A DNA stretch of 64,000 bases from Curvibacter lanceolatus ATCC 14669 (GTDB taxonomy: Bacteria > Pseudomonadota > Gammaproteobacteria > Burkholderiales > Burkholderiaceae_C): NCBI RefSeq assembly GCF_000381265.1, contig NZ_KB906259.1, forward strand, positions 186,001 through 250,000, in the 5' to 3' direction. Numbering within the stretch: position 1 is the stretch's first letter; each line of letters starts with the position of its first letter. Positions 18,613 to 64,000 of the stretch are shown one piece after another. The position numbers and the translations under genes are program-made. Below the pieces are notes generated by a model. That model saw nothing but the letters and a program-made list of their open reading frames with translations. It was not told the DNA's origin and made no database searches.

Positions 18613-18620
18613 GGCGCGGC

Positions 18621-18911
18621 TCACATGTGGTTCACGGATTCGGGCAGTTGGTAGAAGGTGGGGTGGCGGTACACCTTGTCTTCCATCGGGTCGAAGAACA
18701 TGCCCTTGTCGCCCGGGTCGCTGGCCACGATCTGGTCCGAGCGCACCACCCACACGCTGGTGCCTTCCTGGCGCCGGGTGTAGACGTCACGGGCCAGCTG
18801 GATGGCCATCTTGCTGTCGGCGGCGTGCAGGCTGCCGCAATGCTTGTGGTCCAGGCCGGCCTTGGCGCGGACAAACACTTCCCACAGGGGCCATTCGTTC
18901 TGGGTGGTCAT
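18621..18911 (-). CDS. paaB: Phenylacetyl-CoA epoxidase subunit PaaB
   Basis: This is a 96-residue protein, the usual PaaB size. The signatures NEWPLWEVFVRAKAGLDHKH and HCGSLHAAD near the N-terminus are almost invariant in the family. PaaB bridges PaaAC heterodimers in the epoxidase complex. The gene lies 24 bases after paaA and overlaps or abuts paaC. Confidence 0.95.
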   Translation of the reverse strand: MTTQNEWPLWEVFVRAKAGLDHKHCGSLHAADSKMAIQLARDVYTRRQEGTSVWVVRSDQIVASDPGDKGMFFDPMEDKVYRHPTFYQLPESVNHM

Positions 18912-18935
18912 GGAGGTCTCCTTGTCTTGCTTGAA

Positions 18936-19946: not shown

Positions 19947-19973
19947 GGTGGAGTTCCTTTTCTGAAAGTGGCC

Positions 19974-21290: not shown

Positions 21291-21309
21291 GTGGGTCTCT
21301 CCTGATACT

Positions 21310-21747
21310 TCAGCCGGCCACCGCCGGCTTGCCTTTGAGGGTGTAGGAGCGCCCACGGAACACCGCGATGCGCTCGCCGTTCTGGTTGCTCACCTCCACG
21401 TCGTACACGCCGGTGCGGCCGGCCTTGGAGACCTCGGTGGCGCGCGCGGTCAGCACGTCGCCGGCGCGGGCCGGGGCCATGAAATCGACGCTGAAGCCCG
21501 AGGCCACGGTGAGTTCGTTGTACGAGTTGCAGGCAAACGCGAAGGTCGAGTCGGCCAGGGTGGAGATGAGCCCGCCATGGCAGGTCTTGTGGCCGTTGAG
21601 CATGTCCTCGCGCACGGTCATGCTGAGCACGGCGCCGCCGGGCGTCACTTCATGGATCTGCATGCCGAAGCCCAGGGTGACGTTGTCGTTGGCCAGCATG
21701 CCGACGCGCACCAGATCAGCGGTTTGTTGGGGGGTGAGTTCAGACAT
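21310..21747 (-). CDS. paaI: Hydroxyphenylacetyl-CoA thioesterase PaaI
   Basis: The 145-residue hot-dog thioesterase contains GHKTCHGGLISTLADSTFA with the catalytic Asp. PaaI hydrolyses ring-hydroxylated phenylacetyl-CoA side products and frees CoA. The start at 21747 lies 8 bases after paaG, and the gene precedes paaK by 19 bases. Confidence 0.92.
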   Translation of the reverse strand: MSELTPQQTADLVRVGMLANDNVTLGFGMQIHEVTPGGAVLSMTVREDMLNGHKTCHGGLISTLADSTFAFACNSYNELTVASGFSVDFMAPARAGDVLTARATEVSKAGRTGVYDVEVSNQNGERIAVFRGRSYTLKGKPAVAG

Positions 21748-29502: not shown

Positions 29503-32500
29503 GGGGCGGCGTCCACCTTCACCACCTCGTTCGGGGCTTCGCCAAACATCTCGGGGGCGTACATCGCCTCCACCCGGCTGGGCGGCAGGGCGAAGCGGCC
29601 CACGTTGTTCAGGCGCAGCGTGTACTCGAGCTTGATCGTGCCCTTGGGCAAGTACTCGTAGTAGCTGCGGAAGGCCTCGAAGCTGCGCTCTTCAAAGGCC
29701 GGCCAGGCATTGCCTTGCCGCCGCTCGCCCTGGGTGGCGATCTCTGAATCACGCCCCAGGCCGCTGCCCAGCACGGTGGCCCCGGCCGGCACCGGGTCGC
29801 TCAGCACCACCCAGCTCATGTCGGCGCTGGCATTCACCTCCAGGCTGACGCGCAGCACATCGCCCCGGCTGTAGCGGCCCTTGACGGCCTGCTCCAGCGC
29901 CGTGACGGTCTTGCGGATCTGGTAGCCGGCGTTGACCGGGGCCTGGAGCGGCACCGCAGCCAGCGCCTGCAGCGTGAGCCAGGGCTTGCCGCTGCCCGTC
30001 TGGCTGAGCACCAGGGGGGCCTTGGCCCCCTCGGCCGGCCAGGGCAGGTTCAGCGTGTTGTTGCGCCAGCCGCCCGGCGCCGCAGGCGCGCCAAACCAGG
30101 TGGTCTGATGGGCCACACCCTGGCTGTCGGCAGGCTTGGCCCGCTCGACCCGGGCCCAGTCCACACTGCCACTGACGGCGCCCAGGCTGGCCCGGGTGCT
30201 GCCGGTGACCGGTGTGGCCTCGAAGCGGGCCGAGAACTTCTCCAGCGCCAGACCGCCCCACAGATTGGCCGTGGTGGTGTGCCAGGCCCCGTTTTGCTGG
30301 CGGCCGATGAAACCGGCGGCCAGGCGGCCCAGATCGTCCTTCCAGGCCGGGTCGTCCTGCACGGCCAGCAACAGCCGGGCGGCATTCACGTCGCCGTTCT
30401 GCATCATCCACCACCAGGCGTCGTCGGCCTCGGTGCTGAACACCAGCTTGCTGCCCTGGTAGGACAGGCGCGCCCGCAAGACCTGGCTGGCCTCGGCCAG
30501 GCGCTGCTCTCGCTGCGGCACGTCCTTCACGCGGCGCAGGATGTTGAACCAGTCGATCACGGTGTGGGTGGGCCACTGGTTGGGCGCCACGCTCACGCTG
30601 CCCAGCAGGCGCGCCGGGGCCAGGCCGTAGCGCGACAAGGCCTCGATGGCCGCGATCTTGCGCATGTCCAGGTCCTTGCGCGGGCTCCAGAAGTCACGGC
30701 TGATGCGCCCTTCGACAAAGGCCGTCAGGCCGCGCGCCAGGGGGTCGCGCAGCGCATCGGGCAAGGCGAAGGCCGGGTTCAGGCCGGCGGCCTCGTCGGT
30801 GGCGGCCAGCAGGTAGGCGCTCAGCACATCGCTGCCCCGCTGGGCGTCGCCATCGCGCGGCGGAAAGTAGCTGGCCAGGCCGTCGCTGTCGAGGTAGGTG
30901 GGCATCTGGGCCAGCACGGTCTGCCACAGGCGGGCATCGCGCAGGCCCACGGCCTTGCTGGTCTTCTGCTCCAGGCAGGCAAAGGGGTAGTTGGCAAACC
31001 AGTCGCGCACACCGGGCAGGCCATCGGCCAGGCGCGGCTGCAGGGCCAGCTTCAGGCCGCCGCGACCGGGCAAGGCCCCCGCCGGGGCGGCCACATCGAG
31101 GCTGAAGGGCCCGTCGAGCTGCACCAGGGTGGCCTGGCGCACCGTCAGCGGTGTGAGCGGGATCAGGCGCTGGCTGGCCTTCAGGGCGTCGCGGGCGCCG
31201 CTCAGGCTGTCTTTGGCCTCGACCTCCCACAGCAGGGCCTGGGCGCGGGTCTGGCCCAGTTGGGCGGGTGCGGTCACCGTCCAGGCCACTTCGCGCGCCT
31301 CGCCGGGCGGGATGTCCAGCGTCTGCGGCGGCGGGGCCAGCAGCGTGGCACGCGCGCTGACCTGCACCTTCATGGGCTTGGCGGTGGTGTTGCGCAAGGT
31401 GAACTGGGCGCGGTACTGGTCGTCCTCGCGCACCAGCGGCGGCAGGCCGCTGATGATCTGCAGGTCCTGCGTGACGCGGATCGCGGCCTGCCCGGTGCCG
31501 AACAGGCCGGCCCCCACGTCGGCCACCGCCACCACCTGGAAGGTGGTGATGGCGTCGTTCAGAGGCACCTTGAGCGTGGCCTGGCCCTGGGCATCGAGCT
31601 GCACCCGCGGCTGCCACAGCAGCAGGGTGTCCAGCAGCTCACGGGTGTTGCTGCGGCCCCCGCCGCCGCCCGCAGGCACGGCCTTGCGGCCGTAGTGGCG
31701 CCGCCCCACGATCTCCATCTGGGCGGTCGAGGTCTCCACGCCCCAGGCGCGGCGTTGCAGCATGGCGTCCAGCACATTCCAACTGGTGTTGGGCATCAGC
31801 TCCAGCAAGGCCTGGTCGACCACGGCCACGGCCACTTCGGCATTGGCGGCAGGACGGCCGTCGGGCAACCGGGCCTGCAGCGTCACCTGCGCCTGGCCCC
31901 GCACCCCGTAGCCGGGCTTGTCGGTGCTCACCTTCACCTCGATGCGGTGCGCTGCCGTGCCCACCCGCAGCTCGGCCAGGCCCAGGCGGAAGGCGGGCTT
32001 GCTGAGGTCGACCAGGGCCGAGGGGGCCACGTACTCGCGCCCCTCGAACCAGAACGCGGTCCACCACTCGCGTGGGGCCTTGTAGCCCCAGGTGAACAAG
32101 CTGTACCAGGGCACCTCGCGCAGGCGCCCGCGCAGCGCCAGCACGCTGACATACACATTGGGGCCCCAGCCGGGCTGCACCTTGAGCTGCACCGTGGGGT
32201 CCTGCCCGTTGAGCTGCACCACCTCGGAGTGCAACACCCCCTCGCGCTCGACCGACACCAGGGCCGTGGCGTAGCGGAAGGGCATGCGCACCTGCAGCCG
32301 GGCGGTTTCACCGGGCTGGTAGCTCTTCTTTTCGGGCAGCACATCGATGCGGTCGTGGTTGTCACCGCCAAACCACAGCTCACCCTGGCGCGTGATCCAC
32401 ACCGTGCCGGCGGCCTGGGCCTCATGGCCCTGAGCGTCCTTGGCGGTCACCACCAGCTCGACCTCGCCGGCTTCGCGCAGCGTGGTCTCGCACAGCAGCA

Positions 32501-35474
32501 GGCCGCGGCTGTCGCTGCGCCCGCTGCACACGGTGCCCAGCTCCTGGCGACTGCTCTGGTTGTCGTAGGCATAAAAGCCGCCCACCATGCGCTTGCGGCT
32601 GGTGGTGGTGCGGCGGGCCACGGCGCGCACCTCCAGCGGCACATCGGCCTGAGCCCGGCCGTCCGTGCTCAGCGCCAGGGCCTGGAAGCGCAGGGTCTGG
32701 CCACTGGCCACCCAACCCTCGGTCTTGAGGCCCGGCACCACCGCCGCCGGCCACAGCACCTGCTGGCTGCGCAGGGTCTGCACCTCGCCATTGGGGTCGG
32801 CGTAGCGCGCCTCCAGCAACAGGTCCTGGGGCTGGCGCGACTGGGGCAGCTCGGGCAGGGTCAGCCGCCCGCTGCCCTGGCGGTCCAGCAGCAGCGGCAG
32901 CTTGTCGGCCACCACCCGCTGGTCCTGCGCGGCCTGGGGTTGCTCTTCGTCGGCCTGCTCGCTCGCCGCCTGCGGCCCACGGGGCGGGTTGAAGCTGAAA
33001 TCGTCGTGATCGGCAAAGGCGGTGGTGTGCGGGCGCACCAGGGCCGACACCCGCACCGGCAACTGGGCCGCTGGCCCGCCCGACACGTAGCTGACCTGCA
33101 CCTGGGTCGGCAGGCTGCTCAGGTGGACCAGGGGGCCCTTGCCCACCGGACCGATCTGGCCCTGCAACACCGGCAGCCGGAACTCTTCCACCCGGAACAG
33201 CCCGCTTTGCCGGCCGTCCAGGCTCACGTTGTAGACGCCCAGCTTGGCCGCGGGCGGGATGGCGAACTCGCTCTCGGCGCTGAAGCCGCCGCTGGCGGTC
33301 TGGCGCCAGCGCAAGGGCAGGCTGAACTGCTGGCCACTGCCCTCGTGGGTGATGAGCACGGTGGCCGGGCCCTTGGGCGGCAGGCCCAGGCCCTGGCGGG
33401 TTTCGGTGCGCAGGAAGTGCTTCATGGCCACGGTCTCGCCGGCGCGCAGCAGCATGCGGTCGAACACGGTGTGGGCCCGCACATCGGGGCGGGCCTCCTG
33501 GCTGGTGGGCACATTGAAGCGCCAGGATTCGATGCCGCGGTTCCAGTCGCTCCAGGTGAAGGCCAGGTCTTCCACCCCATCGGGGCCCTTGGCGCGGGCG
33601 CTGACGAAATAGGCTTGGCGATAGTCGGCATCGTCGGCGTCTTCGCCGGCCCGAGGCCGGGCACCGCTTTGCGGGCAGGCCGGCGGGTTGGGTGCCAGAT
33701 TGCCAAATTCGACCAGGCCCTGGGCATTGGTGCGGCCCTGGGCCAACTCGCGGCCCGCGCAGTCCGACACGCGCACCAGGGCACCGGCCACCACCGTGCC
33801 CTTGTCCAGGGTGGTGACCCAGGCCTGGGCGTTCTCACGGCCGAGCTTGAAATGCACCCCCAGGTTGGTGACCAGGGCCGAGGTGCGCACCACCATGCTG
33901 CGCCCGGGCCCGTAGCCTTCGGCCAGCAGTTTTTCGCCCAGGCGACGCGACTGGATCTCGACCACGTGGAAGCCCGGGCTCAGCGGAATGCCCACCACCT
34001 CGAAGGGGCGTGGATCGGGGCTGTCGGTCTTGGGCAGGTCCAGGGCCTTCACGCCCGGCAGGCCGTCGATCAGCGACAGCATGCGCGATTCGACCAGGCC
34101 CCGGGTGTCGGGCAGCACCTCTCTGGGCAGCGGGCCCTTCACGTCGCGGGCGGCCCGGCTGCGCGGCACCCAGAAGGCGTCATAGGCCTGCACCTTGCGG
34201 TACCAGGCGATGATGTCGGCGTCGTCTTTGGGCTGCAGGTCGCGCACCTGGCCGGGGCTCAGGCCCTTCACCTGCAGGGCCGGCTCGACCTGGCGCAGCG
34301 TGACGGGCAGCAAGGCGGGGCCCCCCGGCTCGGCCAGGCGCTCGATCACGCCAAACGGGGCGGCGGCAAACTTGGCCAGTGGTGGCATGGCCCCGGTGGC
34401 CACGGCCAGCGGAAAGGTGGCGGCATTGCTCAGGGGTCGGCCCGACACATCGGCAAAGCCCGAAGGCAGGGTCAGGCGGTAGGCCTTGCGCTCGGGAAAC
34501 ACCCCCTTGAAGCTGAGCGAGGTCACCGCGCCCTCCGTGCCTTCGTCGGCCGCGTCCAGGCTGGGGGCCAGGCTGCCGCCGTCGTGCTGCAGGCGCACGC
34601 CTTCGGCCAGGCGCCGCGGCACCGCGGCGTTGAAGTGCAGCGTCATGGGCCGGATCGGCAGGCAGGCGGCCTGGGCGTTTTCGCGCTCGCAGCTGAAACT
34701 GGCGGCAAAGGCTTCGCGCACCTGGTAGCGCCAGCGCTTGTCCTGGTTGCTGAGCACACCGCTCGGGGTGGCCACCCCTTTGCCCACCACCAGGTCCAGC
34801 TCCGAGCCCGGCGCCAACTGGCGCGGGCAGCGCACCGTGTGGTAGCGCAGGGGCTCGGCGGCGGCGGCCTTGCCCAGGCCCAGGGCCTGCAGCAAGGCCG
34901 TGCGATCTGCGGGCTCCAGCGGCTTCACGGGCATGCGCTCGCCCAGGCCCTGCAGCTCGCAGGCCACCCGGGCCTGCACACTGGTCGCCGTGGCTGGGCC
35001 GTTGAACTGCAGCACGAAGAACTGCCCCTCATCGATGGGCGCGTAATGCCCGGGCCGGATGTTCTGAACAAAGGGCCCGCCGGTGTTGAAGCGGAAACGG
35101 TTGCGCCCGCTCAGGGCCACGCCCTTGGGCGAGGTGAAGCCCGTGCGGGCCTGCAGCTCGCAGGCCACGCCGGGCGGCAGGTCACGCTCGAAATCAAAGG
35201 CCCACTCACGGTCGCTGAGCCAGCGGCCACTGCCCCGGCTGGCGCTGGCGTCGTCACACACCAGGCTCAGCGGGGCGGGGGCAGCCGGGTCGCCAAAGGT
35301 GACGGCAGGCTCGTCAAAACGCGCCAGCACCTGGCGCACCTGGGCCACCTCGCCCTGGGGCGACAAGGTGCTGATCTGCAGCGCCTGGGCGGCGGTGGCG
35401 AACAGGCCGATGCTGGCCCACAGGCCAACTCGCCAGCGTCGCAGGGCCTTCTGGAACGGGACATTCTTGTTCAT
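29499..35474 (-). CDS. Bacterial alpha-2-macroglobulin family protein (YfhM-like)
   Basis: The 1991-residue protein starts at the ATG at 35474 with a strong AGGAGGTG site. A signal peptide ends near ATAAQA-LQI; no lipobox Cys follows, unlike the lipoprotein E. coli YfhM. MG domains follow (HTVFDRMLLRAGETVAMKH is the conserved bait-flanking block). The thioester motif CLEQ is intact at Cys1500, within PFACLEQKTSKAVGLRD, inside an alpha/alpha toroid complement-like domain. Such proteins trap foreign proteases in the periplasm, and PbpC then repairs damaged peptidoglycan. The two genes overlap by 4 bases here. Confidence 0.93.
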   Translation of the reverse strand: MNKNVPFQKALRRWRVGLWASIGLFATAAQALQISTLSPQGEVAQVRQVLARFDEPAVTFGDPAAPAPLSLVCDDASASRGSGRWLSDREWAFDFERDLPPGVACELQARTGFTSPKGVALSGRNRFRFNTGGPFVQNIRPGHYAPIDEGQFFVLQFNGPATATSVQARVACELQGLGERMPVKPLEPADRTALLQALGLGKAAAAEPLRYHTVRCPRQLAPGSELDLVVGKGVATPSGVLSNQDKRWRYQVREAFAASFSCERENAQAACLPIRPMTLHFNAAVPRRLAEGVRLQHDGGSLAPSLDAADEGTEGAVTSLSFKGVFPERKAYRLTLPSGFADVSGRPLSNAATFPLAVATGAMPPLAKFAAAPFGVIERLAEPGGPALLPVTLRQVEPALQVKGLSPGQVRDLQPKDDADIIAWYRKVQAYDAFWVPRSRAARDVKGPLPREVLPDTRGLVESRMLSLIDGLPGVKALDLPKTDSPDPRPFEVVGIPLSPGFHVVEIQSRRLGEKLLAEGYGPGRSMVVRTSALVTNLGVHFKLGRENAQAWVTTLDKGTVVAGALVRVSDCAGRELAQGRTNAQGLVEFGNLAPNPPACPQSGARPRAGEDADDADYRQAYFVSARAKGPDGVEDLAFTWSDWNRGIESWRFNVPTSQEARPDVRAHTVFDRMLLRAGETVAMKHFLRTETRQGLGLPPKGPATVLITHEGSGQQFSLPLRWRQTASGGFSAESEFAIPPAAKLGVYNVSLDGRQSGLFRVEEFRLPVLQGQIGPVGKGPLVHLSSLPTQVQVSYVSGGPAAQLPVRVSALVRPHTTAFADHDDFSFNPPRGPQAASEQADEEQPQAAQDQRVVADKLPLLLDRQGSGRLTLPELPQSRQPQDLLLEARYADPNGEVQTLRSQQVLWPAAVVPGLKTEGWVASGQTLRFQALALSTDGRAQADVPLEVRAVARRTTTSRKRMVGGFYAYDNQSSRQELGTVCSGRSDSRGLLLCETTLREAGEVELVVTAKDAQGHEAQAAGTVWITRQGELWFGGDNHDRIDVLPEKKSYQPGETARLQVRMPFRYATALVSVEREGVLHSEVVQLNGQDPTVQLKVQPGWGPNVYVSVLALRGRLREVPWYSLFTWGYKAPREWWTAFWFEGREYVAPSALVDLSKPAFRLGLAELRVGTAAHRIEVKVSTDKPGYGVRGQAQVTLQARLPDGRPAANAEVAVAVVDQALLELMPNTSWNVLDAMLQRRAWGVETSTAQMEIVGRRHYGRKAVPAGGGGGRSNTRELLDTLLLWQPRVQLDAQGQATLKVPLNDAITTFQVVAVADVGAGLFGTGQAAIRVTQDLQIISGLPPLVREDDQYRAQFTLRNTTAKPMKVQVSARATLLAPPPQTLDIPPGEAREVAWTVTAPAQLGQTRAQALLWEVEAKDSLSGARDALKASQRLIPLTPLTVRQATLVQLDGPFSLDVAAPAGALPGRGGLKLALQPRLADGLPGVRDWFANYPFACLEQKTSKAVGLRDARLWQTVLAQMPTYLDSDGLASYFPPRDGDAQRGSDVLSAYLLAATDEAAGLNPAFALPDALRDPLARGLTAFVEGRISRDFWSPRKDLDMRKIAAIEALSRYGLAPARLLGSVSVAPNQWPTHTVIDWFNILRRVKDVPQREQRLAEASQVLRARLSYQGSKLVFSTEADDAWWWMMQNGDVNAARLLLAVQDDPAWKDDLGRLAAGFIGRQQNGAWHTTTANLWGGLALEKFSARFEATPVTGSTRASLGAVSGSVDWARVERAKPADSQGVAHQTTWFGAPAAPGGWRNNTLNLPWPAEGAKAPLVLSQTGSGKPWLTLQALAAVPLQAPVNAGYQIRKTVTALEQAVKGRYSRGDVLRVSLEVNASADMSWVVLSDPVPAGATVLGSGLGRDSEIATQGERRQGNAWPAFEERSFEAFRSYYEYLPKGTIKLEYTLRLNNVGRFALPPSRVEAMYAPEMFGEAPNEVVKVDAAP

Positions 35475-35556
35475 ACGCACCTCCTCAACCGGCTCTGGGG
35501 GAACAAAAGTGTTCACCAGGCGGGCTCCGGATGGCATCGTATGAGAAAAATGCGAC

Positions 35557-35579
35557 AAGCCCCCGCAATGCGGGGGCTT
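35557..35579 (-). terminator. Strong hairpin between degP-like and alpha-2-macroglobulin genes
   Basis: AAGCCCCCGC-AAT-GCGGGGGCTT is a perfect 10-base-arm inverted repeat 37 bases past the protease stop codon. On the minus strand a TTTTT run follows 6 bases after the stem, so it is probably the protease terminator. Confidence 0.7.
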
Positions 35580-49296: not shown

Positions 49297-50325
49297 ATGA
49301 TCATCGACGTTCACGGCCACTACACCACCGCCCCGGCCGCCCTGGGCGCCTGGCGCGACCTGCAGATCGCCGCCCTGAAAGACCCCAGCAAGGCGCCCAA
49401 GGCCTCCGAGCTGAAGATCAGCGACGACGAGCTGCGCGAGTCCATCGAGACCAACCAGCTCAAGCTGATGAAAGAGCGCGGCAGCGACCTGACCATCTTC
49501 AGCCCGCGCGCCAGCTTCATGGCGCACCACATCGGCGACTTCGAGACCTCGTCCACCTGGGCCGCCATCTGCAACGAGCTGTGCTTCCGCGTGAGCGAGC
49601 TGTTCCCCGACCACTTCATCCCGGCCGCCATGCTGCCGCAGTCGCCCGGCGTCGACCCGGCCACCTGCATCCCCGAACTGGTCAAGTGCGTGGAGCAGTA
49701 CGGCAACGTGGGCATCAACCTGAACCCCGACCCTTCGGGCGGCCATTGGACCAGCCCGCCGCTGTCGGACCGCCACTGGTACCCCATCTATGAAAAGATG
49801 GTCGAGTACGACATCCCGGCGATGATCCACGTGAGCACCAGCTGCAACAGCTGCTTTCACACCACCGGCGCCCACTACCTGAACGCCGACACCACGGCCT
49901 TCATGCAATGCCTGACCAGCGACCTGTTCAAGGACTTCCCCACCCTGAAGTTCCTGATCCCGCACGGCGGCGGCGCGGTGCCCTACCACTGGGGCCGTTT
50001 CCGGGGCCTGGCACAAGAGCTGAAGAAGCCCCTGCTGAAGGACCACCTGCTCAACAACATCTTCTTTGACACCTGCGTGTACCACCAGCCGGGCATCGAC
50101 CTGCTGACCAAGGTGATCCCGGTGGACAACATCCTGTTTGCCAGCGAGATGATCGGCGCCGTGCGTGGCATCGACCCCGAAACCGGCCACTACTACGACG
50201 ACACCAAGCGCTACGTGGCCGCCACGCCCAACCTGAGCGACGAAGACCGCTACAAGGTCTATGAAGGCAACGCACGCCGCGTCTTCCCGCGCCTGGACAA
50301 GGCCCTCCAGGCCAAGGGCCTGTAA
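49297..50325 (+). CDS. ligJ: 4-oxalomesaconate hydratase (LigJ/PmdE)
   Basis: The 342-residue amidohydrolase-superfamily protein has the metal motif DVHGHY at the N-terminus, later His in AMIHVSTSC and [16 protein letters not shown], and [13 protein letters not shown] near the C-terminus. It hydrates 4-oxalomesaconate to 4-carboxy-4-hydroxy-2-oxoadipate in the protocatechuate 4,5-cleavage route. It is second in the operon, followed after 28 bases by the aldolase. Confidence 0.93.
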
Positions 50326-50353
50326 CCCCATTCAACGAACCGGAGCCCCCACC

Positions 50354-51037
50354 ATGTACGAACTCGGAGTCGTTTACCGCAACATCACCCGCGCCGACCG
50401 CGCGGCCGCCGACGGCCTGGCCGCCCTGGGCTCGGCCACCGTGCACGAAGCCATGGGCCGCGTCGGCCTGCTCAAGCCCTACATGCGCCCCATCTATGCG
50501 GGCCAGAAGGTGTCGGGCACCGCTGTCACCGTGCTGTTGCAGCCCGGCGACAACTGGATGATGCACGTGGCCGCCGAGCAGATCCAGCCCGGCGACATCG
50601 TGGTGGCGGCGGTCACCGCCGAATGCACCGACGGCTATTTTGGCGACCTGCTGGCCACCAGCTTCCAGGCCCGTGGCGCCCGCGCCCTGATCATCGATGC
50701 CGGCGTGCGCGACGTGGCCACGCTGCAGGAGATGAACTTCCCGGTCTGGAGCAAGGCCATCAGCAGCAAGGGCACCATCAAGGCCACCCTGGGCTCGGTG
50801 AACATCCCCGTGGTGTGCGCCGGCATGCTGGTCACCCCGGGTGACGTGATCGTGGCCGACGACGACGGCGTGGTCTGCGTGCCCGCCGCCCGCGCCCAGG
50901 CCACCCTGGAGGCCGCCATCAAGCGCGAATCGTTCGAAGGCGAAAAGCGCGCCAAGCTGGCCTCGGGCGTGCTGGGCCTGGACATGTACAAGATGCGCGA
51001 GCCGCTGGCCGCCGCCGGCTTGAAGTACATCGACTGA
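50354..51037 (+). CDS. ligK: 4-carboxy-4-hydroxy-2-oxoadipate aldolase (LigK/PmdF)
   Basis: The 227-residue protein is an RraA-like class II aldolase. [31 protein letters not shown] and the Arg/Asp pair in [11 protein letters not shown] are conserved, and Arg/Asp help bind metal and pyruvate enolate. It cleaves the hydratase product to pyruvate and oxaloacetate. The start at 50354 gives the family-like [11 protein letters not shown]. Confidence 0.95.
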
Positions 51038-51047
51038 TGCGCCCCCC

Positions 51048-51069
51048 GGCGGCCCCGCTGCGGGCCGCC
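51048..51069 (+). other. Hairpin between ligK and ligI
   Basis: GGCGGCCC-CGCTGC-GGGCCGCC has 8-base perfect arms, 10 bases after the ligK stop. It lacks a T-run and lies inside the operon, so it may affect transcript stability or act as a partial terminator. Confidence 0.5.
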
Positions 51070-51101
51070 TCTTTGGCAACACCACCCCCACAGAGATTGA
51101 C

Positions 51102-52034
51102 ATGAGCAAACCCACCACAGGTGATTTCACCAAGACCTCCGGCTGGCTGGACTGGTACGAAGGCCCGGCCAAGCCGGCTTTCAAGCTGCCGGCCGGCGCG
51201 GTTGACGCGCACTGCCACGTGTTCGGCCCGGGGGCCGAGTTTCCCTACGCCCCCGAACGCAAATACACCCCCTGCGACGCCAGCAAGCAACAGCTGTACG
51301 CGCTGCGCGACCACCTGGGCTTTGCCCGCAACGTGGTGGTGCAGGCCACCTGCCACGGCGCCGACAACCGCGCCATGGTCGATGCCTGCCTGTCCAGCGG
51401 CGGCAAGGCCCGCGGCGTGGCCACCGTCAAGCGCTCGGTCACCGACGAAGAGCTGCAGGCCCTGCACGCCGCCGGCGTGCGCGGTGTGCGCTTCAACTTC
51501 GTCAAGCGCCTGGTCGACTTCACGCCCAAGGACGAGCTGCTGGAGATCGCCAACCGCATCGGCAAGCTGGGCTGGCATGTGGTGATCTACTTCGAGGCGG
51601 TGGACCTGCCAGAGCTGTGGGATTTCTTCACCGCCCTGCCCACCACCGTGGTGGTCGATCACATGGGCCGCCCCGATGTGAGCAAGCCCATCGACGGCCC
51701 CGAGTTCCAGCTGTTCCTGAAGTTCATGCGCGAGCACACCAACGTGTGGAGCAAGGTGAGCTGCCCCGAGCGCCTGAGCGTGAGCGGCCCCAAGGCCCTG
51801 AACGGCGAGCAGAACGCCTACACCGACGTGATCCCCTTCGCCCGTGCCGTGGTGCAGGAGTTCCCGGACCGCGTGCTGTGGGGCACCGACTGGCCGCACC
51901 CCAACCTGAAGGACCACATGCCCGACGATGGCCTGCTGGTCGACTTCATCCCGCACATCGCACCGACCGCCGAGCTGCAGCAAAAGCTGCTGGTGGACAA
52001 CCCCATGCGTCTCTACTGGCCAGAAGAACAATGA
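51102..52034 (+). CDS. ligI: 2-pyrone-4,6-dicarboxylate hydrolase (LigI/PmdD)
   Basis: The 310-residue amidohydrolase has the metal motif VDAHCHVFGPG, and GTDWPHPNLKDHMPDDG near the end holds the catalytic Asp. RGVRFNFVKRLVD and VVDHMGRPDV lie between. It opens 2-pyrone-4,6-dicarboxylate to 4-oxalomesaconate. Hairpins in the gaps on both sides set it apart within the operon. Confidence 0.95.
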   Translation: MSKPTTGDFTKTSGWLDWYEGPAKPAFKLPAGAVDAHCHVFGPGAEFPYAPERKYTPCDASKQQLYALRDHLGFARNVVVQATCHGADNRAMVDACLSSGGKARGVATVKRSVTDEELQALHAAGVRGVRFNFVKRLVDFTPKDELLEIANRIGKLGWHVVIYFEAVDLPELWDFFTALPTTVVVDHMGRPDVSKPIDGPEFQLFLKFMREHTNVWSKVSCPERLSVSGPKALNGEQNAYTDVIPFARAVVQEFPDRVLWGTDWPHPNLKDHMPDDGLLVDFIPHIAPTAELQQKLLVDNPMRLYWPEEQ

Positions 52035-52059
52035 CCCCCACGCTCCACCGCTGCGCGGG

Positions 52060-52112
52060 TCGCTGCCCCCCCGGGGGGCGCAAATCGCCTTGGGGCGGCC
52101 CGGCGGCGATTT
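52060..52112 (+). repeat. C/G-rich intergenic element (Comamonadaceae-type) with two hairpins
   Basis: The 102-base gap between ligI and ligA contains a GCCCCCCCGGGGGGC stem (about 52065-52079) and AAATCGCC/GGCGATTT arms (52082-52089 and 52105-52112). Its CGCTGCCCCCC...GCCTTGGGGCGGCCCGG layout resembles a dispersed repeat common in Comamonadaceae intergenic DNA; this is from memory. Confidence 0.55.
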
Positions 52113-52136
52113 CGACCGTCAAATTGGAAAAATGAA

Positions 52137-54407
<2,271 letters not shown>

Positions 54408-57111: not shown

Positions 57112-58575
57112 TCAGCGGTAGACCAGCGCCTCGTCCTGCAGCGACGCCCCGGGCAGGATGACACGCTCCTCGGCATACTCCAGGCCGTGCCGCCACGGGT
57201 GGCGATCCCCCTGGCCGAACAGGGTGGCCTGCGCGCGCATGACATAACCCGCGTTGAAGTTGTCGGCCTCGCTCCAGGGCCGGCGTGGCATGCCGGCGTC
57301 GGCATCGGGCACGGTGGGGACCACCATGGCATGGCCCTGCTCGCGCAGGTGGGCCAGCAGGCGGCACACCCAGTCGCACACCAGGTCGGCGCGCAGCGTC
57401 CAACTGGAGCGGAAGTAGCCCTGGGTGTAGGCCATGTTGGGCACCCCTTCGATCATCAGGCCGCGGTAGGTGACGCGCTCGCGCCAATCCACCGGCACCC
57501 CGTCGACCTCGAAGTGGATGCCCCCGAACAACTTGAGATTGAAGCCGGTCGCGGTGACGATGATGTCGGCATCCAGGCGCTCACCACTGGCCAGCTCAAT
57601 GCCTTGCGCATCGAAGCGCTCGATGGTGTCGGTGACCACCGAGGCCCGGCCCGTGCAGAGGGCCTGGAACAGATCCCCGTCGGGCACCTTGGCAATGCGT
57701 TGCTGCCAGGGTCGGTAACGCGGGCTGAAGTGCCGATCCAGGTCGTAACCCTCGGGCAGCCGCGCCCGCACATCGTCGAGCAGCAGGGCACGCAAGGCCT
57801 CGGGCTGCTCAAACGACAGCCGAATCACCTCGTCCGATCGGGCCACGAAGGCCCGGCGCATGATCTCGTGAAACCAGTCATCGGGCAGATGGAGCGGGCG
57901 CAGCTGAGCCGCCAGCGGATGCTCCCAGGGCTCGGCCGAGAAGAACGTGGGTGAGCGCTGCAGCATCGTGACGTGGGCCGCCTCTTCGGCCAGACTCGGG
58001 ATCAGTGTGGCGGCCGTGGCGCCCGAGCCAATGACCACCACGCGCCGGCCCTCGCAGGACAAATCCTGCGGCCAATGCTGGGGGTGCACCACCTGCCCCT
58101 GGAAGTCCTTGAGCGTGGGCCATTCCGGGGTGTGGCCCTGGTCGTGGTCGTAGTAGCCCGCACAGATCCAGAGAAAGGCGGTGGTGAAGGTCTGGCTTTC
58201 GCCGGCCCCATCGCGGCTGACGGTGAGCGTCCAGCGATGGGTGTCGGACGACCAAGCGGCCGACTGCACCTTGTGGCCGTAGCGAATGTGCGGGGCCAGG
58301 TCGTTCTCTGCGATCACCTCGTCCAGGTAGGCTCGGATCTCTTCGGCGCTTGCGATGGCGCGCCCTGTCCAGGGTTTGAAGCCATAGCCATAGGTGAAAA
58401 GGTCACTGTCGGAGCGAGCACCCGGGTAGCGGTGGGTCCACCAGGTGCCGCCAAAGCCAGGCATGGCCTCAAGAAGGCAGAAGGAACGGTCGGGGAAGCG
58501 TTGGCTCAGCTGACGGGCCGCGCCGAGGCCGGAGATGCCGGCGCCGATGATGAGAACGTCGAAGTCTTGCGTCAT
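57112..58575 (-). CDS. Flavin-containing monooxygenase, Baeyer-Villiger type
   Basis: The 487-residue protein has an N-terminal FAD fingerprint (IIGAGISGLG), then the Baeyer-Villiger fingerprint F-x-G-x3-H-x3-W-P at DFQGQVVHPQHWP (Phe158 to Pro169) and a second Rossmann motif IGSGATAATLIPS (about 182-194). It uses NADPH and O2 to oxidise a ketone to an ester, or a similar substrate. It follows the P450 operon on the same strand after a hairpin, so it may be separately transcribed. Confidence 0.88.
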   Translation of the reverse strand: MTQDFDVLIIGAGISGLGAARQLSQRFPDRSFCLLEAMPGFGGTWWTHRYPGARSDSDLFTYGYGFKPWTGRAIASAEEIRAYLDEVIAENDLAPHIRYGHKVQSAAWSSDTHRWTLTVSRDGAGESQTFTTAFLWICAGYYDHDQGHTPEWPTLKDFQGQVVHPQHWPQDLSCEGRRVVVIGSGATAATLIPSLAEEAAHVTMLQRSPTFFSAEPWEHPLAAQLRPLHLPDDWFHEIMRRAFVARSDEVIRLSFEQPEALRALLLDDVRARLPEGYDLDRHFSPRYRPWQQRIAKVPDGDLFQALCTGRASVVTDTIERFDAQGIELASGERLDADIIVTATGFNLKLFGGIHFEVDGVPVDWRERVTYRGLMIEGVPNMAYTQGYFRSSWTLRADLVCDWVCRLLAHLREQGHAMVVPTVPDADAGMPRRPWSEADNFNAGYVMRAQATLFGQGDRHPWRHGLEYAEERVILPGASLQDEALVYR

Positions 58576-58669
58576 GAGCTAGGCCTCCTGGTTGGCTGAC
58601 CAGGGTCATCCTAGGCTCCAGGTCAAAAACCACACTCACCCACGCGACAGAAGTCGGGTGTGGCTGGAC

Positions 58670-58706
58670 GCGCCTGCAGCCTCCCCGCACAGGGGCCTGC
58701 AGGCGC
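58670..58706 (-). terminator. Long nested hairpin after the ferredoxin reductase gene
   Basis: GCGCCTGCAG and CTGCAGGCGC are perfect 10-base arms, and CCCC/GGGG pairs inside the loop. It lies 20 bases beyond the stop of the P450 operon and upstream of the monooxygenase start. There is no T-run, so it may terminate poorly or mainly stabilise the transcript end. Confidence 0.55.
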
Positions 58707-58726
58707 AGGACGCCCTCAGCCCACCA

Positions 58727-59992
58727 TTACCCCGCCAGCAGCCCCGCCAGGTTGAAGCCCAGATCCGCCGCCTGCTCGGGCGTGGGCGACACGCCCGCGT
58801 CGAGCAGCTTGCGCGCCGTCAGGTGATCCTTGGCGGCATTCACCGAATCCACCGCCACCAGGCGCCCGGCGCGGTACTGGAAGACCGAGAACGGGCCCTC
58901 GTCCAGGCTGCCGCGCAGCACCGCCTGGTCGGCGCCTTCGGACAGGCCGGCCATCTGCAGCTTGCGGTCGTACTGGTCAGACCAGAACCAGGGCGTGGCC
59001 GTGAAGGGCCGCTCCTGCCCCAGCAGGGCCGCCGCCGCCGACTTGCCCTGCTCGGAGGCGTTCTGCACCGACTCCAGGCGCAGCAGCCGGCCGTCCGGCA
59101 GGCGGCGCGCGGCACAATCGCCCGCCGCCACGATCAGCGGATCGGCCGTGCGCCCGCAGGCGTCCACCACAATGCCACGGTCCACCGCCAGGCCGGCCTC
59201 GCGGGCCAGCGCATCGTTGGGCTGCACGCCCACACCCAGCACCACCAGACCGCAAGGCAGCGCGCGGCCATCGGCCAGTTGCACGGCCCGGGCCTGGCCG
59301 TCTTGCACCACCAGACGCTCGATGGCGGCGCCCAGCTCCAGCGCCACCCCGTGGCTGCGGTGCAGTGCGGCATACCAGTCGGACAACTGCGGGCTCAGCA
59401 CCCGGCCCAGCAGGCGCGGCGCGGCTTCAAGCACGGTCACGGCCACGCCCTTCTTGCGCGCCGTGGCCGCCACCTCCAGGCCGATGAAGCCGCCGCCGAT
59501 CACCACCAGGGGCAGACCCTCGGCCTGGCAACGGGCCAGCCCGGCAGCGATGGCCACGGCGTCGTCGCGGCTGCGCAAGGTCAGCACGTTGGCGGCCTCG
59601 GCGCCGGGCAAGGGCAGGCGCCGCGGCGTGGCCCCGGTGGCCAGCACCAGGCCGGTGTAGGGCAGTGCGCTGCCATCGGCCAGCCGCACCTGCTGTGCCG
59701 CGCGGTCGATGGCCTGCACCGGGCTGCCGGTGCGCAGGGTGATCTGCTTGCGCGCCAGCATCTCGGGCGCGCGCATCAGCAACTGAGCCGCATCCACCTC
59801 GCCGGCCAGCCAGGCCTTGGACAGTGGCGGGCGGTGGTAAGGCGCATGCGGCTCGTCGCCCAGCAGGGTGATGGCGGCGCTGCTGCCGCCGCTGCGCAGG
59901 GCCTCGGCCGCCATCAGGCCGGCCTGGCCGGCCCCGATGATGACAATGTGCGCCCCGGGGTCTTGCGGGGCGGTGTCGGGCAGGCCGCTCAT
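58727..59992 (-). CDS. Ferredoxin--NAD(P)H reductase of the P450 system
   Basis: The 421-residue protein has an FAD fingerprint IIGAGQAGLMAAEAL near the N-terminus, RPPLSKAWL typical of putidaredoxin-reductase-like enzymes, an NAD motif VIGGGFIGLEVAATA and a C-terminal ACQ-free dimer region (FWSDQYDRKLQMAG). It passes electrons from NADH to the ferredoxin. The ATG at 59992 overlaps the ferredoxin stop by 4 bases. Confidence 0.92.
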   Translation of the reverse strand: MSGLPDTAPQDPGAHIVIIGAGQAGLMAAEALRSGGSSAAITLLGDEPHAPYHRPPLSKAWLAGEVDAAQLLMRAPEMLARKQITLRTGSPVQAIDRAAQQVRLADGSALPYTGLVLATGATPRRLPLPGAEAANVLTLRSRDDAVAIAAGLARCQAEGLPLVVIGGGFIGLEVAATARKKGVAVTVLEAAPRLLGRVLSPQLSDWYAALHRSHGVALELGAAIERLVVQDGQARAVQLADGRALPCGLVVLGVGVQPNDALAREAGLAVDRGIVVDACGRTADPLIVAAGDCAARRLPDGRLLRLESVQNASEQGKSAAAALLGQERPFTATPWFWSDQYDRKLQMAGLSEGADQAVLRGSLDEGPFSVFQYRAGRLVAVDSVNAAKDHLTARKLLDAGVSPTPEQAADLGFNLAGLLAG

Positions 59993-60312
59993 TCCTGCGT
60001 CTCGGGCAGGGTCAGGCTGCCGCCGGCCAGGGCCGGGCTGGCCTTGATCTGGCAGGCCAGGCGGCTGTTGGGGCGCCGCTCGGCGGACACGTTGTCCAGC
60101 ATGTCGAGCTCGCTGGCGCTGGGCGCGGGCAGGGCCCCCATCAGCAGATCGTCCACGTAGCAGTGGCAGGTGGCACAGGCGCAGGAGCCGCCGCATTCGC
60201 CCAGAATGCCGTCGATGCCGTTGGCGATGGCGGCCTGCATCAGGCTCCAACCGTCGGGAACGTCCACGTCGGTGCGTTGGCCCGAGGCTTCGATGTAGGT
60301 GAGTGTGGTCAT
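59989..60312 (-). CDS. [2Fe-2S] ferredoxin (putidaredoxin/adrenodoxin type)
   Basis: The 107-residue protein has the C-x5-C-x2-C set (Cys40, Cys46, Cys49) in GECGGSCACATCHCYVDD, with the fourth ligand Cys87 in SRLACQI. Two extra cysteines (44 and 51) are nearby. It starts 16 bases after the P450 gene and delivers electrons to it. Confidence 0.95.
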   Translation of the reverse strand: MTTLTYIEASGQRTDVDVPDGWSLMQAAIANGIDGILGECGGSCACATCHCYVDDLLMGALPAPSASELDMLDNVSAERRPNSRLACQIKASPALAGGSLTLPETQE

Positions 60313-60328
60313 GGGTGGGGCTCCAGGT

Positions 60329-61507
60329 TCAGCGGGTGCTCAGGTCCAGCACCAGGGGGCTGCGGAAGGTGGACGACGGCATCCAGGCCAGTTGGTCCTG
60401 CATGCGGTGGTACTCGGGCACCACCTGGTGGAACTCCTCGAACGCGGTCTTGATGGCCAGGCGCGCGATCGCCGTGCCCAGGCAGGCATGCACGCCGCCG
60501 CCAAAGCCCAGGTGGCCGCGTGGCTTGCGTGTGATGTCGTAGGCATCGGGGTTGGGGTACTGGCGCTCGTCGCGGTTGCCCGACCCATAGGCCAGGCAGA
60601 CGAAGTCGCCGGTCTTCATGGTCTGGCCGTGCAGGGTCACGTCCTTCATCAGGCGGCGGCGGAAGCGCTGGGCCGAGGTGTTGAAACGCAGCGACTCTTC
60701 GACGGCATCGGGCAGCAGGGCCGGGTTGGCCACCACGGCGCGGCGCGCCTCATCGAAGCTGGCCAGGTTGTAGGCAAACATCATCATGAAGCCGCCCAGC
60801 GATTCGACACCGGCCATGATCAGCGTGGTGGTGGTCAGCAACACCTCGCGCTCGTCCAGGCGGTCGCCGTCGATCTCGGCCATGGCGAAGTGGCTGATCA
60901 GGTCGTCGCGCGGCTCGGCGCGGCGCATGGCGATCACCTTGGAGGCGTACTCCTGCATCCAGTTGTAGGCCGCGATGTGCTCGGGGCCCTTGGTGCGGGT
61001 GCGGGCGTCGCTCTGCACCATCAGCACGGCGTTGTCGCGCACGGTCTGCTCGTCGACGATGGCCTCGTCGCCCATGGGCAGGCCCAGGGCCGCCATCAGT
61101 ACCTTGACGGTGAACTGCGAGGACACCTCCTTGAAGTCAAAGCGCTCCACCCCGCGCAGCTGGCCGAACACCTGGCGCGCCACGGCACGGATGGGCTCGT
61201 CAAGCGCCAGCAGGTTGCGCTTCATGAAGGCATGCTGGATCAGGCCGCGCAGGCGGTCATGGCGCGGTGGATCGGAGCTGCCCAGGGTGGCGCCGGCGCG
61301 GCCGGGCAACTCGGTCATGAGGTTGCCGCTGGCCGAGGAATAGGTCTGCCAGTCCTGGCCCGCCGTCACGATGTCGGCGTAGCGCGACAGCACCCACATC
61401 TGGGCCTCGGGGCTCCAGAAGCAGGGGTGTTCGTCGCGCAGGATCTTGTAGTACGGAAAGGGATCGGCATCGATGGCCGGCGAATAGGGGTCGAAACTGA
61501 AGCTCAT
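60329..61507 (-). CDS. Cytochrome P450 (bacterial class I)
   Basis: The 392-residue soluble protein starts at the ATG at 61507 after CAGGAGA. The haem loop is FGGGVHACLG with Cys342 as ligand. ExxR is EESLRF, and the I-helix reads MAGVESLGG, so the usual Thr of the A-G-x-D/E-T motif is Ser. P450s with ferredoxin and reductase form three-component hydroxylases or demethylases. The setting among aromatic genes and an AraC gene suggests an aromatic substrate, but the sequence does not name it. Confidence 0.93.
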   Translation of the reverse strand: MSFSFDPYSPAIDADPFPYYKILRDEHPCFWSPEAQMWVLSRYADIVTAGQDWQTYSSASGNLMTELPGRAGATLGSSDPPRHDRLRGLIQHAFMKRNLLALDEPIRAVARQVFGQLRGVERFDFKEVSSQFTVKVLMAALGLPMGDEAIVDEQTVRDNAVLMVQSDARTRTKGPEHIAAYNWMQEYASKVIAMRRAEPRDDLISHFAMAEIDGDRLDEREVLLTTTTLIMAGVESLGGFMMMFAYNLASFDEARRAVVANPALLPDAVEESLRFNTSAQRFRRRLMKDVTLHGQTMKTGDFVCLAYGSGNRDERQYPNPDAYDITRKPRGHLGFGGGVHACLGTAIARLAIKTAFEEFHQVVPEYHRMQDQLAWMPSSTFRSPLVLDLSTR

Positions 61508-61550
61508 GTTGTCTCCTGGGGCACCCGCTGTGGGGCTGGGCTGAATTCTG

Positions 61551-61607
61551 TTTTGACCCAGGGCAAAGCGCAGTGGACGAAAGCCGGCCAATACTTGCAC
61601 TTTTGAC
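61551..61607. promoter_or_regulatory. Direct repeats in the P450/AraC intergenic region
   Basis: TTTTGACCCA at 61551 and TTTTGACGCA at 61601 are near-identical direct repeats exactly 50 bases apart, in the 114-base gap between the divergent P450 and AraC genes. Direct repeats are typical AraC-family sites. Function is inferred. Confidence 0.45.
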
Positions 61608-61621
61608 GCACCCTGCCTGAC

Positions 61622-62590
61622 ATGCCCCACTCGCCCCGATCCCCCCAGCCGGTGCGCCGCCGCTTCAACACCCTGCCCGCGTTTGCGCTCTATGGCGAAG
61701 CCGGCAGCCCCGGCGCAGCCTTGCTGCACATTGAATCCATCGAGTCGCGCAGCCGGCTGTACGACTGGGAGATCGATGCCCACGTGCATCAGGGTTTGCA
61801 CCAGGTGCTGTGGCTGCGCTCGGGCTGGGCCGAGGTGGTCTTGGACGAAAGTCGCAGTCGCTGCGAGGGCCCCACGGCGGTGCTCATCCCCCCCGGCGTG
61901 GCGCACGCCTTCCGTTTCTCGTCCGACAGCGACGGCCATGTGCTGACCGTCAACGCCCACCTGCTGGCCGAGGGCGAAGCCGCCGGCATGGGCCAGGCGC
62001 TGCAGCAGTTGTTCGCCCGCCCGCGCACCCTGCCGCTGGAGGCGGGCTCACCCGACGTATCCCGCCTGCAGCCCCTGTTCGAGGCCCTGCACGCCGAAAA
62101 CAGCGCCGACGACGCCGCCGAGGCGCCTGTGCCCCTGTGGCTGGCCCGGGCCGTGGTCTGGCGCCTGGCCCAACTGGGCCAGCGCGGCCAAGCCGAGGGT
62201 TCAGACGCCGGCCCGCCGGGCGACACCAGCCGCCCCTCGCGCCGCCAGGCCCTCTACACCCGCTGGGTGGTGCTGCTGGAGTCGCACTACCGCGAACACT
62301 GGCCGGTGTCGCGCTATGCCGAGCAACTGGGCCTGTCCACCGAACGGCTGAACCGCATGGTGGCGGCCGAAACCGGGCGCAACGCGCAAGAGCTGCTGCA
62401 CGCCCGCCTGGCACGCGAGGCCTGCCGCCGGCTGGTGCACATCGCCGCGCCCGTGCAGCGCATCGCCTTCGACCTGGGCTTTGAAGACCCGGCCTACTTC
62501 TGCCGCTTCTTCAAGCGCCACACCGGCCAGTCGCCCCGCGCCTACCGCCAACAGGCTCAAGGTGGCGCAGGCGCCACGCCATCGGGTTGA
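61622..62590 (+). CDS. AraC-family regulator (PobC-like)
   Basis: The 322-residue protein has an N-terminal cupin-like sensor (WEIDAHVHQGLHQVLWLRSG; LIPPGVAHAFRF) and a C-terminal AraC domain with two helix-turn-helix units (SRYAEQLGLSTERLNRMV and VQRIAFDLGFEDPAYFCRFF). The sensor resembles PobC-type activators of 4-hydroxybenzoate genes, from memory. It is divergent from the P450 operon, its likely target. Its 3' end overlaps the convergent LysR gene by 34 bases. Confidence 0.85.
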   Translation: MPHSPRSPQPVRRRFNTLPAFALYGEAGSPGAALLHIESIESRSRLYDWEIDAHVHQGLHQVLWLRSGWAEVVLDESRSRCEGPTAVLIPPGVAHAFRFSSDSDGHVLTVNAHLLAEGEAAGMGQALQQLFARPRTLPLEAGSPDVSRLQPLFEALHAENSADDAAEAPVPLWLARAVVWRLAQLGQRGQAEGSDAGPPGDTSRPSRRQALYTRWVVLLESHYREHWPVSRYAEQLGLSTERLNRMVAAETGRNAQELLHARLAREACRRLVHIAAPVQRIAFDLGFEDPAYFCRFFKRHTGQSPRAYRQQAQGGAGATPSG

Positions 62591-63483
62591 ACAGCGCGGG
62601 CCACGTCGTCCAGCGCATGGCGCAGCCACTGGTGCACCGGGTCGCTGTGGTGGCGCAGGTGCCACACCTGGTACATGGGCATGGGCGGTGTGACCAGGGG
62701 CACCGGGGCCATGGCCAGGCCCCGCAGGCTGTGGCGCGCCAGCAGCGAGGGCGCGGTGGCCAGCCAGTCGCTGCCGCGCAGCATCGAACCCAGCGCAGCC
62801 ATGCCCGGCACGCTGGCCACGAAGCGGCGCTCCAGGCCCTGGGCCAGCATCCACTGGTCGATGTCCAGCGTGCGGCGCGGCTCGTACAGCACGGTCACGT
62901 GGTCGGCGCCCAGATAGGCCTCGCGGCTGGCCGGGGCGGCCCGCTGGCCGGGGTCGTAGAACACGGCGTAGCGGTCTTCGAACAGGCGTTTTTGCAGGAT
63001 GTCCGAGCCCTCGGGCGGGCGCGGCGTGATGATCAGCTGGCACACCTCATCGCGCAGCAAGGCCGGGCCGGGTGCGCCCGACTTGATCACCCGCAGGGTG
63101 ACGCCCGGGGCCTGCTCGCGCAGGCGGCGCAGCAGGGGCGGCAGCAGCAGGTCGCGCTGCAGGTCGTTGGCCGCGATGGTGAAACAGGTGTTGAGCCGGG
63201 CCGGCTCAAAGCCGGCGGCCACGCTGAAGGCCTCCAGTTCATCGAGCAGGTGGCGGGCCCGCTGCGCCAGCAGGCCCGCCTGGGCCGTGGCCACGATGCC
63301 GCGCCCCGACTTGACGAACAGCGGATCGCCCACGATGGCGCGCAGCCGGTCCAGGCCGTGGCTGACCGCCGACTGGGTCAGGCCCAGGCGCTGGGCGGCA
63401 CCGGTCACGCTGCCAGCCTCCTGCACCGTGACCAGCAGTTGCAGCAGGCGGGCGTCCAGACTCAACCAATCAAATTTATTCAT
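62557..63483 (-). CDS. LysR-family regulator divergent from the second ligA-like gene
   Basis: The 308-residue protein begins MNKFDWLSLDARLLQLLVTV, with the winged helix GAAQRLGLTQSAVSHGLDRLR and a normal effector domain. I used the ATG at 63483; an upstream ATG at 63519 gives a hydrophobic leader unlike the family. It faces the second dioxygenase genes across 86 bases and probably controls them. Confidence 0.88.
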   Translation of the reverse strand: MNKFDWLSLDARLLQLLVTVQEAGSVTGAAQRLGLTQSAVSHGLDRLRAIVGDPLFVKSGRGIVATAQAGLLAQRARHLLDELEAFSVAAGFEPARLNTCFTIAANDLQRDLLLPPLLRRLREQAPGVTLRVIKSGAPGPALLRDEVCQLIITPRPPEGSDILQKRLFEDRYAVFYDPGQRAAPASREAYLGADHVTVLYEPRRTLDIDQWMLAQGLERRFVASVPGMAALGSMLRGSDWLATAPSLLARHSLRGLAMAPVPLVTPPMPMYQVWHLRHHSDPVHQWLRHALDDVARAVQPDGVAPAPP

Positions 63484-63569: not shown

Positions 63570-63938
63570 ATGACCGCCACCAAGCCCCAGATCCCGGGCA
63601 CCACCTTGTTCGACGGCGACCAGGCCCAGAAAGGCTATGCCCTGAACAAGATGTGCTTCTCGTTCAACAGCGCCGACCAGCGCAACGCCTTCAAGGCCGA
63701 CGAAGCCGCCTACATGGCCGCCTACGGCCTGAACGAGGAACAGGCCCGGGCCATCCGTGAACGCGACGTGCTGGGCCTGCTGGCGGCCGGCGGCAATGTG
63801 TACTACCTCGCCAAGTTCGCCGGCATCCTGGGCCTGGATGTGCAAGACCTGGGCGCTGCCCAGACCGGCATGAGCAAGGACGCCTTCAAGGCCATGCTGC
63901 TGGCGCAGAACCAGCAACCCGACACCCTGGCCGCCTGA
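63570..63938 (+). CDS. Second LigA-like dioxygenase alpha subunit
   Basis: The 122-residue protein shares IPGTTLFDGDQAQKGYALNK, FKADEAAYMAAYGLNEEQ and AAGGNVYYLAKFAG with the LigA at 52137, but is 23 residues shorter and differs in the C-terminal half (ILGLDVQDLGAAQTGMS). It starts at the ATG at 63570 after GGAGA. It is followed after 44 bases by a LigB-like start, so it is a paralogous extradiol dioxygenase, perhaps for gallate, a methylated catechol or another substituted protocatechuate. Substrate is unknown. Confidence 0.88.
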   Translation: MTATKPQIPGTTLFDGDQAQKGYALNKMCFSFNSADQRNAFKADEAAYMAAYGLNEEQARAIRERDVLGLLAAGGNVYYLAKFAGILGLDVQDLGAAQTGMSKDAFKAMLLAQNQQPDTLAA

Positions 63939-63982: not shown

Positions 63983-64000
63983 ATGGCAAAGATTGTTGGT
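63983..64000 (+). CDS. Start of a second LigB-like dioxygenase catalytic subunit (cut by window edge)
   Basis: Only six codons are present: ATG GCA AAG ATT GTT GGT (MAKIVG), with a GGAGAAAC site about 6 bases upstream. The MAKI start matches LigB (MAKITA) at 52576, and it follows a LigA-like gene. The identification depends on position and these few residues. Confidence 0.6.

Follow-up and report, generated by a model that had tools for sequence, protein, structure and literature searches.

A cytochrome P450 gene was analyzed in a 64,000-nucleotide stretch of Curvibacter lanceolatus ATCC 14669 (contig NZ_KB906259.1, positions 186,001–250,000; hereafter the window), where it belongs to a compact electron-transfer operon within an island for protocatechuate 4,5-cleavage. 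Genes of a second LigAB-type extradiol dioxygenase, denoted here LigAB2, accompany this P450 almost constantly across genomes, which suggests that the P450 probably readies an aromatic acid for ring opening. We consider it probable that a hydroxy- or methoxybenzoate is oxidized by the enzyme to a protocatechuate-type catechol used by LigAB2, that the cleavage product joins the island's PmdC/LigI/LigK pathway, and that a divergently encoded AraC protein turns the P450 on. Electrons would pass from NAD(P)H through the reductase and the ferredoxin to the P450, which would perform one oxidation, either hydroxylation or O-demethylation, and LigAB2, coded just past a LysR gene, would then cleave the resulting catechol. 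An earlier note on this DNA had already proposed an aromatic substrate made ready for ring cleavage by the P450, and a link to the protocatechuate pathway; the cleavage operon and the LigAB2 pairing bear out the link, and the sequence context favors the proposed role. LigAB2 as the partner of the P450 is a new point absent from that note, and ligA2 begins beyond the segment it described.

The P450 gene (60329–61507, minus strand; 392 residues; Pfam p450, PF00067) is followed by those of a 107-residue [2Fe-2S] ferredoxin of putidaredoxin type (59989–60312, minus strand; Pfam Fer2) and a ferredoxin reductase of putidaredoxin-reductase type (58727–59992, minus strand; Pfam Pyr_redox_2 and Reductase_C), the P450 and reductase starts being set at the first ATG in the open-reading-frame translations. 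A 16-base gap between P450 and ferredoxin and a 4-base overlap between ferredoxin and reductase were measured, consistent with the single tight operon that had been described earlier. The nearest solved ferredoxins were putidaredoxins (best PDB match 1oqq, 106 bits), and the reductase matched 3fg2 with 338 bits and putidaredoxin reductase 1q1r, third among its solved relatives, with 304 bits. This indicates a class I set, and by sequence the P450, the [2Fe-2S] ferredoxin and the flavin adenine dinucleotide (FAD)-dependent reductase are a complete putidaredoxin-type one, as the earlier note had it. Among the best 80 P450 loci of 115 confirmed candidates, several of which are broken off at contig ends, the ferredoxin was present in 75 and the reductase in 70, a grouping that exceeds chance. 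The P450 of Curvibacter gracilis ATCC BAA-807 (locus L007) was 100% identical to that of the window. Coordinates and Pfam domains also agree with the surroundings reported before: an AraC-family gene (61622–62590, plus strand; Pfam HTH_18) diverges from the operon, a flavoenzyme of Baeyer-Villiger monooxygenase (BVMO) type lies behind it, and protocatechuate genes are nearby.

A P450 is assigned to a subfamily when it shares more than 55% identity with a named member. The closest solved relative of the window enzyme was P450-T2 (PDB 8FBC), with a score of 794 bits and 342 of 389 aligned residues equal (87.9%), while all other chains, including CYP125 and P450terp, gave 181 bits or less. P450-T2 was put in CYP203A by its authors, at 73.15% identity to CYP203A1 of Rhodopseudomonas palustris (PMC7780096). 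On the strength of its identity to P450-T2, the window P450 is a member of the CYP203A subfamily. The earlier note had named placement among terpene or steroid hydroxylases as the outcome that would speak against an aromatic role; by bit score against solved structures, these families are not its closest relatives. An alignment of 82 P450 sequences was prepared from the window and 81 of 82 fetched loci, one being left out for its short match, and spans down to 60.8% identity. The I-helix Glu and Ser were invariant in all 82 (AGVES in the window), so that the Ser is a family trait. It does mark a subfamily, as had been suspected, but this is the already known CYP203A, in which Ser is normal. 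Furthermore, each of 17 sites taken from the P450-T2 mutagenesis table (PMC11334723) was identical in at least 80 of the 82 sequences, which agrees with the expectation of one common substrate.

Beyond the AraC gene, a LysR-family regulator (62557–63483, minus strand; Pfam) diverges from ligA2 (63570–63938, plus strand), which encodes the alpha subunit of the second dioxygenase (NF009918, 194.4 bits, cut-off 161). Only the first bases of ligB2 fall in the window (63983–64000, plus strand), and the gene for its 278 residues continues beyond the window end (L006:1983-2819; NF009901, 521.8 bits, cut-off 290). LigB2 retains the LigB stretches SHxPAI, YNDH, DH, and GTGGxSHQ, and its HIPxSNTA loop matches LigB and not the variant seen in gallate dioxygenase. 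LigAB2 hence has both the alpha and beta subunits and the conserved His/Glu stretches that characterize the LigAB type, and it is predicted by family to be a protocatechuate 4,5-dioxygenase, with gallate or an analogue as a possible substrate. It forms a lineage apart, with 45% identity between LigB2 and the island's own PmdB. A third LigB-like gene was also observed in the window's genome (G000:C1:737663-738469; 44% identity to LigB2).

The genome-wide distribution of the two enzymes was examined across a 150-genome sample of the window's family, taking at least 65% identity as LigB2-type. The P450 was found in 12 of these genomes (for G142, the match is partial and lies at the end of a contig) and a LigB2-type gene in 36, comprising all 12 with the P450 (in G012 split into two pieces on separate contigs) versus 24 of the 138 without it; the hypergeometric probability of this pairing is 7e-9, uncorrected for kinship. 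For 50 P450-bearing genomes reached through the 80 loci, a collection chosen by us whose species partly overlap the family sample, 48 carried a LigB2-type gene, one of them as fragments. In a second family, represented by 198 genomes and containing the Bradyrhizobium genome G188, every one of the 19 genomes whose P450 reached 73% identity also had the LigB2 type (at least 59% identity there), compared with 15 of the 179 others. The pairing was thereby seen in two classes of Proteobacteria, with differing gene arrangements. A PmdB-type dioxygenase is encoded separately in all 19 of these second-family genomes.

The two genes also often lie close together, although the association is looser here than at the scale of whole genomes. 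Recurrent neighbors in the 80 P450 loci were AraC (73), LysR (47), LigB2-type (42), and PmdB (19) genes, LysR being found as well in 15 of 24 LigB2 loci devoid of the P450. Of the 44 loci flanked by 8 kb or more in each direction, 25 contained LigB2, 15 PmdB, and 29 one or both of them. The window order runs LigB2-LigA2, LysR, AraC, and P450-ferredoxin-reductase; Comamonas loci L043 and L049 have ligA-ligB-P450 in line, and LigAB is convergent with the P450 in Azospirillum L004. For the second family, LigB2 was located at most 3 kb from the P450 in 14 of 14 fetched loci (P450 at least 73% identical), of which seven have ligA-ligB-P450 in line, five have AraC between, and two show the window's order; five of the 19 P450-bearing genomes were left out of this set, including G188, whose two genes are separated by about 28 kb. 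Near the ligAB-P450 unit in L170, L173, L175, L176, and L182, a protein of about 650 residues with similar N-termini was observed on the strand opposite to the P450. Two further second-family loci, L184 and L185, contain a more distant P450 group (52–55% identity) with no LigAB nearby.

The nearest NCBIfam model for the AraC regulator was HpaA, the 4-hydroxyphenylacetate regulator (TIGR02297), at 168.7 bits, below the cut-off of 274.65. A putative AraC site was located in the P450/AraC intergenic region (61508–61621), with its first half-site starting from 61604 on the minus strand. It follows the motif AARAGTRCMAG then GTNCA 7–23 bases on, with at most one mismatch in the first part, which was derived from 18 loci chosen by us out of the 80. 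This site is the sole match in the window at one mismatch or fewer, and one of two at two or fewer. In about half of the loci (35 of 78), the P450 is preceded by the motif at a distance of no more than 250 bases, with four matches elsewhere in 1.34 Mb at one mismatch or fewer; this count is partly circular, because 18 of these loci had served to define the motif. No match was detected in 417 kb around loci lacking the P450, nor in the alphaproteobacterial loci scanned (L170-L174, L176-L178, L181, L182), and the idea that one AraC-site motif serves every locus was accordingly discarded. Searches for sigma-70-type promoters (none found, 0.3 expected) and terminators (two found, 2.5 expected) gave nothing over chance.

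The same motif was found before pobA, the gene of 4-hydroxybenzoate 3-hydroxylase, in five Bradyrhizobium-type loci, two of them (L148 and L073) from one genome: L073 at 8895, L076 at 1772, L077 at 8915, L147 at 384, and L148 at 395, all on the minus strand. Its half-sites are closer together there, and it was not found before the P450 of these five loci. The surroundings of LigB2 were fetched for all 24 family genomes that bear it without the P450. One of them, L107, showed the order LigB2-LigA2, LysR, AraC, PobA, AKR, and PmdC-PmdB, in which PobA occupies exactly the position of the P450 in the window. Another, L109, has AraC beside PobA-LigA2-LigB2 in one apparent operon, and for its genome, G143, this PobA is the only listed match to exceed the cut-off. 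These PobA proteins keep the residues that we take to bind 4-hydroxybenzoate. The shared place and promoter motif indicate that the P450 and PobA loci are one kind of island, and the two enzymes probably have a common type of regulator. A plain replacement of PobA by the P450 predicts few PobA genes in P450-bearing genomes, and it was demoted to a rival explanation when PobA was found in 42 of the 50 collected ones (41 over the cut-off), against 104 of the 150 family genomes over the cut-off (Fisher p = 0.10), and in all 19 P450-bearing genomes of the second family. Hence the P450 does not simply stand in for PobA, and more likely acts on a neighboring substrate or as a redundant route beside it.

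Conversion of a hydroxy- or methoxybenzoate for LigAB2 is hence favored by the genome-wide pairing, the co-location, PobA at the place of the P450, the motif before pobA, the conserved pocket, and the LigB-type loop. It is further consistent with the report that CYP203A1 binds 4-hydroxybenzoic acid, besides chlorinated and other substituted aromatics (PMC7780096). Several observations weigh against it. Neither LigB2 nor PmdB was near the P450 in 15 of the 44 well-flanked loci, and two of the 50 P450-bearing genomes gave no LigB match whatever. LigB2 is missing from two of the four second-family genomes whose P450 is 53–56% identical, and the 24 family genomes with LigB2 alone had PobA nearby at only three of their loci. 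The motif precedes the P450 in fewer than half of the loci scanned, and related genomes are not independent, so that close kinship inflates the counts. Binding by CYP203A is unselective, since chlorobenzenes, mimosine, and emodin are also among its reported ligands. Turnover of a native substrate by any CYP203A enzyme was found neither in the available parts of PMC11334723 and PMC7780096 nor in literature listings, whose titles and abstract openings mention no native CYP203A substrate and no P450-LigAB unit; the original CYP203A1 work was not among them.

Among more specific explanations, O-demethylation of a methoxylated benzoate, such as vanillate, isovanillate, anisate, or veratrate, would account for the coexistence of the P450 with PobA and PmdB and for its having its own regulator. 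Such chemistry is known from CYP199A4, which demethylates 4-methoxybenzoate, but no demethylase-specific feature was found in the window enzyme, and we regard this specific version as somewhat unlikely. Direct functional equivalence to PobA, that is, 3-hydroxylation of 4-hydroxybenzoate to protocatechuate, is likewise rather doubtful. It would fit the L107 arrangement, the shared motif, and the reported CYP203A1 ligand, and four of the 12 P450-bearing family genomes (G036, G054, G066, G142) lack a strong PobA match, with fragments only in a fifth (G050). Against this stands the frequent coexistence described above: PobA is even encoded near the P450 in L068, L073, L076, L077, and L081, and the window's genome encodes a PobA at another site, adjoining an IclR-like gene. 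A gallate-type branch, in which gallate or a 5-substituted protocatechuate would be formed by the P450, handled poorly by PmdAB, and cleaved by LigAB2, would fit the separate PmdB-type dioxygenase of all 19 second-family genomes, beside which LigAB2 looks specialised; however, LigB2 is closer to LigB (1b4u, 282 bits) than to gallate dioxygenase (232 bits), its loop is of the LigB type, and PobA shares an apparent operon with LigA2 and LigB2 in L109, which makes this branch improbable. The preferred reading, a hydroxy- or methoxybenzoate made into a catechol for LigAB2, may be extended as follows, though tentatively: CYP203A and LigAB2 could be obligate partners for one lignin-derived benzoate, the heme P450 forming the catechol and a dedicated dioxygenase, apart from the housekeeping PmdAB, opening its ring, with a P450-type 4-hydroxybenzoate 3-hydroxylase possible in strains without PobA.

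The flavoenzyme behind the operon (57112–58575, minus strand; 487 residues; Pfam FMO-like) carries F-x-G-x3-H-x3-W-P at residue 158 and two GxGxxG/A motifs, that is, the FxGxxxHxxxW[PD] fingerprint and the two Rossmann motifs of type I BVMOs, and it matched the steroid monooxygenase 4ap1 with 123 bits. Among the 150 genomes, 17 others contain BVMO relatives (45–66% identity), and only two of the 18 family genomes with such a gene, the window's and G119, possess the P450, the two genes being far apart in G119. Next to the P450, it was found in one of the 80 loci, namely L007. In L008 and L009, whose P450s are 98% and 93% identical, a TctC gene follows the reductase within about 25 bases and the BVMO is missing between them. 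A joint pathway of the P450 and the BVMO, as the earlier note had put forward, for example one acting on aryl ketones, would fit their common strand and the 151-base spacing behind the reductase in this species, but it is very improbable, and the BVMO was rejected as a pathway partner. Its presence in a single locus indicates that it is probably an independent neighbor outside the conserved P450 module.

The main protocatechuate 4,5-cleavage operon of the island (50261–54407, plus strand) encodes LigK (50261–51037), a LigI-type hydrolase (51102–52034), PmdB (52576–53448), and a PmdC-like dehydrogenase (53445–54407), all on the plus strand; the names LigI and PmdC are presumptive and follow gene position. 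Phenylacetate-type genes were observed at 8537–21356, including an aldehyde dehydrogenase-MaoC fusion (8537–10579), which we take to be PaaZ-like, a branched-chain amino acid type ABC transporter fusion (11362–13227), and a phenylacetate-CoA-ligase-like AMP-binding enzyme (19974–21356), the other phenylacetate gene names being presumptive as well. These genes suggest that the aromatic island may extend beyond protocatechuate. Elsewhere in the window (27295–35558), a bacterial alpha-2-macroglobulin of 2019 residues adjoins a transglycosylase/transpeptidase, presumably resembling the YfhM-PbpC pair.

CYP203A enzymes have been expressed, crystallized, and engineered for carbene transfer, and the tentative extension above, an obligate pairing of CYP203A with LigAB2, would supply their native role if true. 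Together with the AraC site, the LigAB2 pairing and the overlap with PobA loci narrow the candidates to a few hydroxy- and methoxybenzoates, making the native function directly testable, Curvibacter gracilis being one suitable species, and an added P450 route into protocatechuate 4,5-cleavage could possibly be useful in lignin conversion. Compared with known systems, the window enzyme is closest to P450-T2 (GenBank MT232929), which came from a hot-spring metagenome and shares its Glu-Ser I-helix; unlike the window enzyme, P450-T2 is known as a heterologous catalyst, used for carbene transfer (PMC11334723), that binds mimosine and emodin. CYP203A1 belongs to the same subfamily, and its reported binding of 4-hydroxybenzoic acid and other aromatics was noted above. 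CYP199A2 and CYP199A4, the latter a 4-methoxybenzoate demethylase, are bacterial P450s acting on para-substituted benzoates, but they are distant from the window P450, as 2fr7, which we take to be CYP199A2, gave 125 bits against 794 for 8FBC. LigB2 keeps the LigB stretches of the LigAB/PmdAB dioxygenases, compared here with gallate dioxygenase (DesB), yet belongs to a separate lineage. PobA, an FAD enzyme with an AraC- or IclR-type regulator, is a protein unrelated to the P450 and is mostly found in addition to it, but it can take the place of the P450 in the same island, adjoin LigAB2, and, in Bradyrhizobium-type loci, share the promoter motif of the P450.

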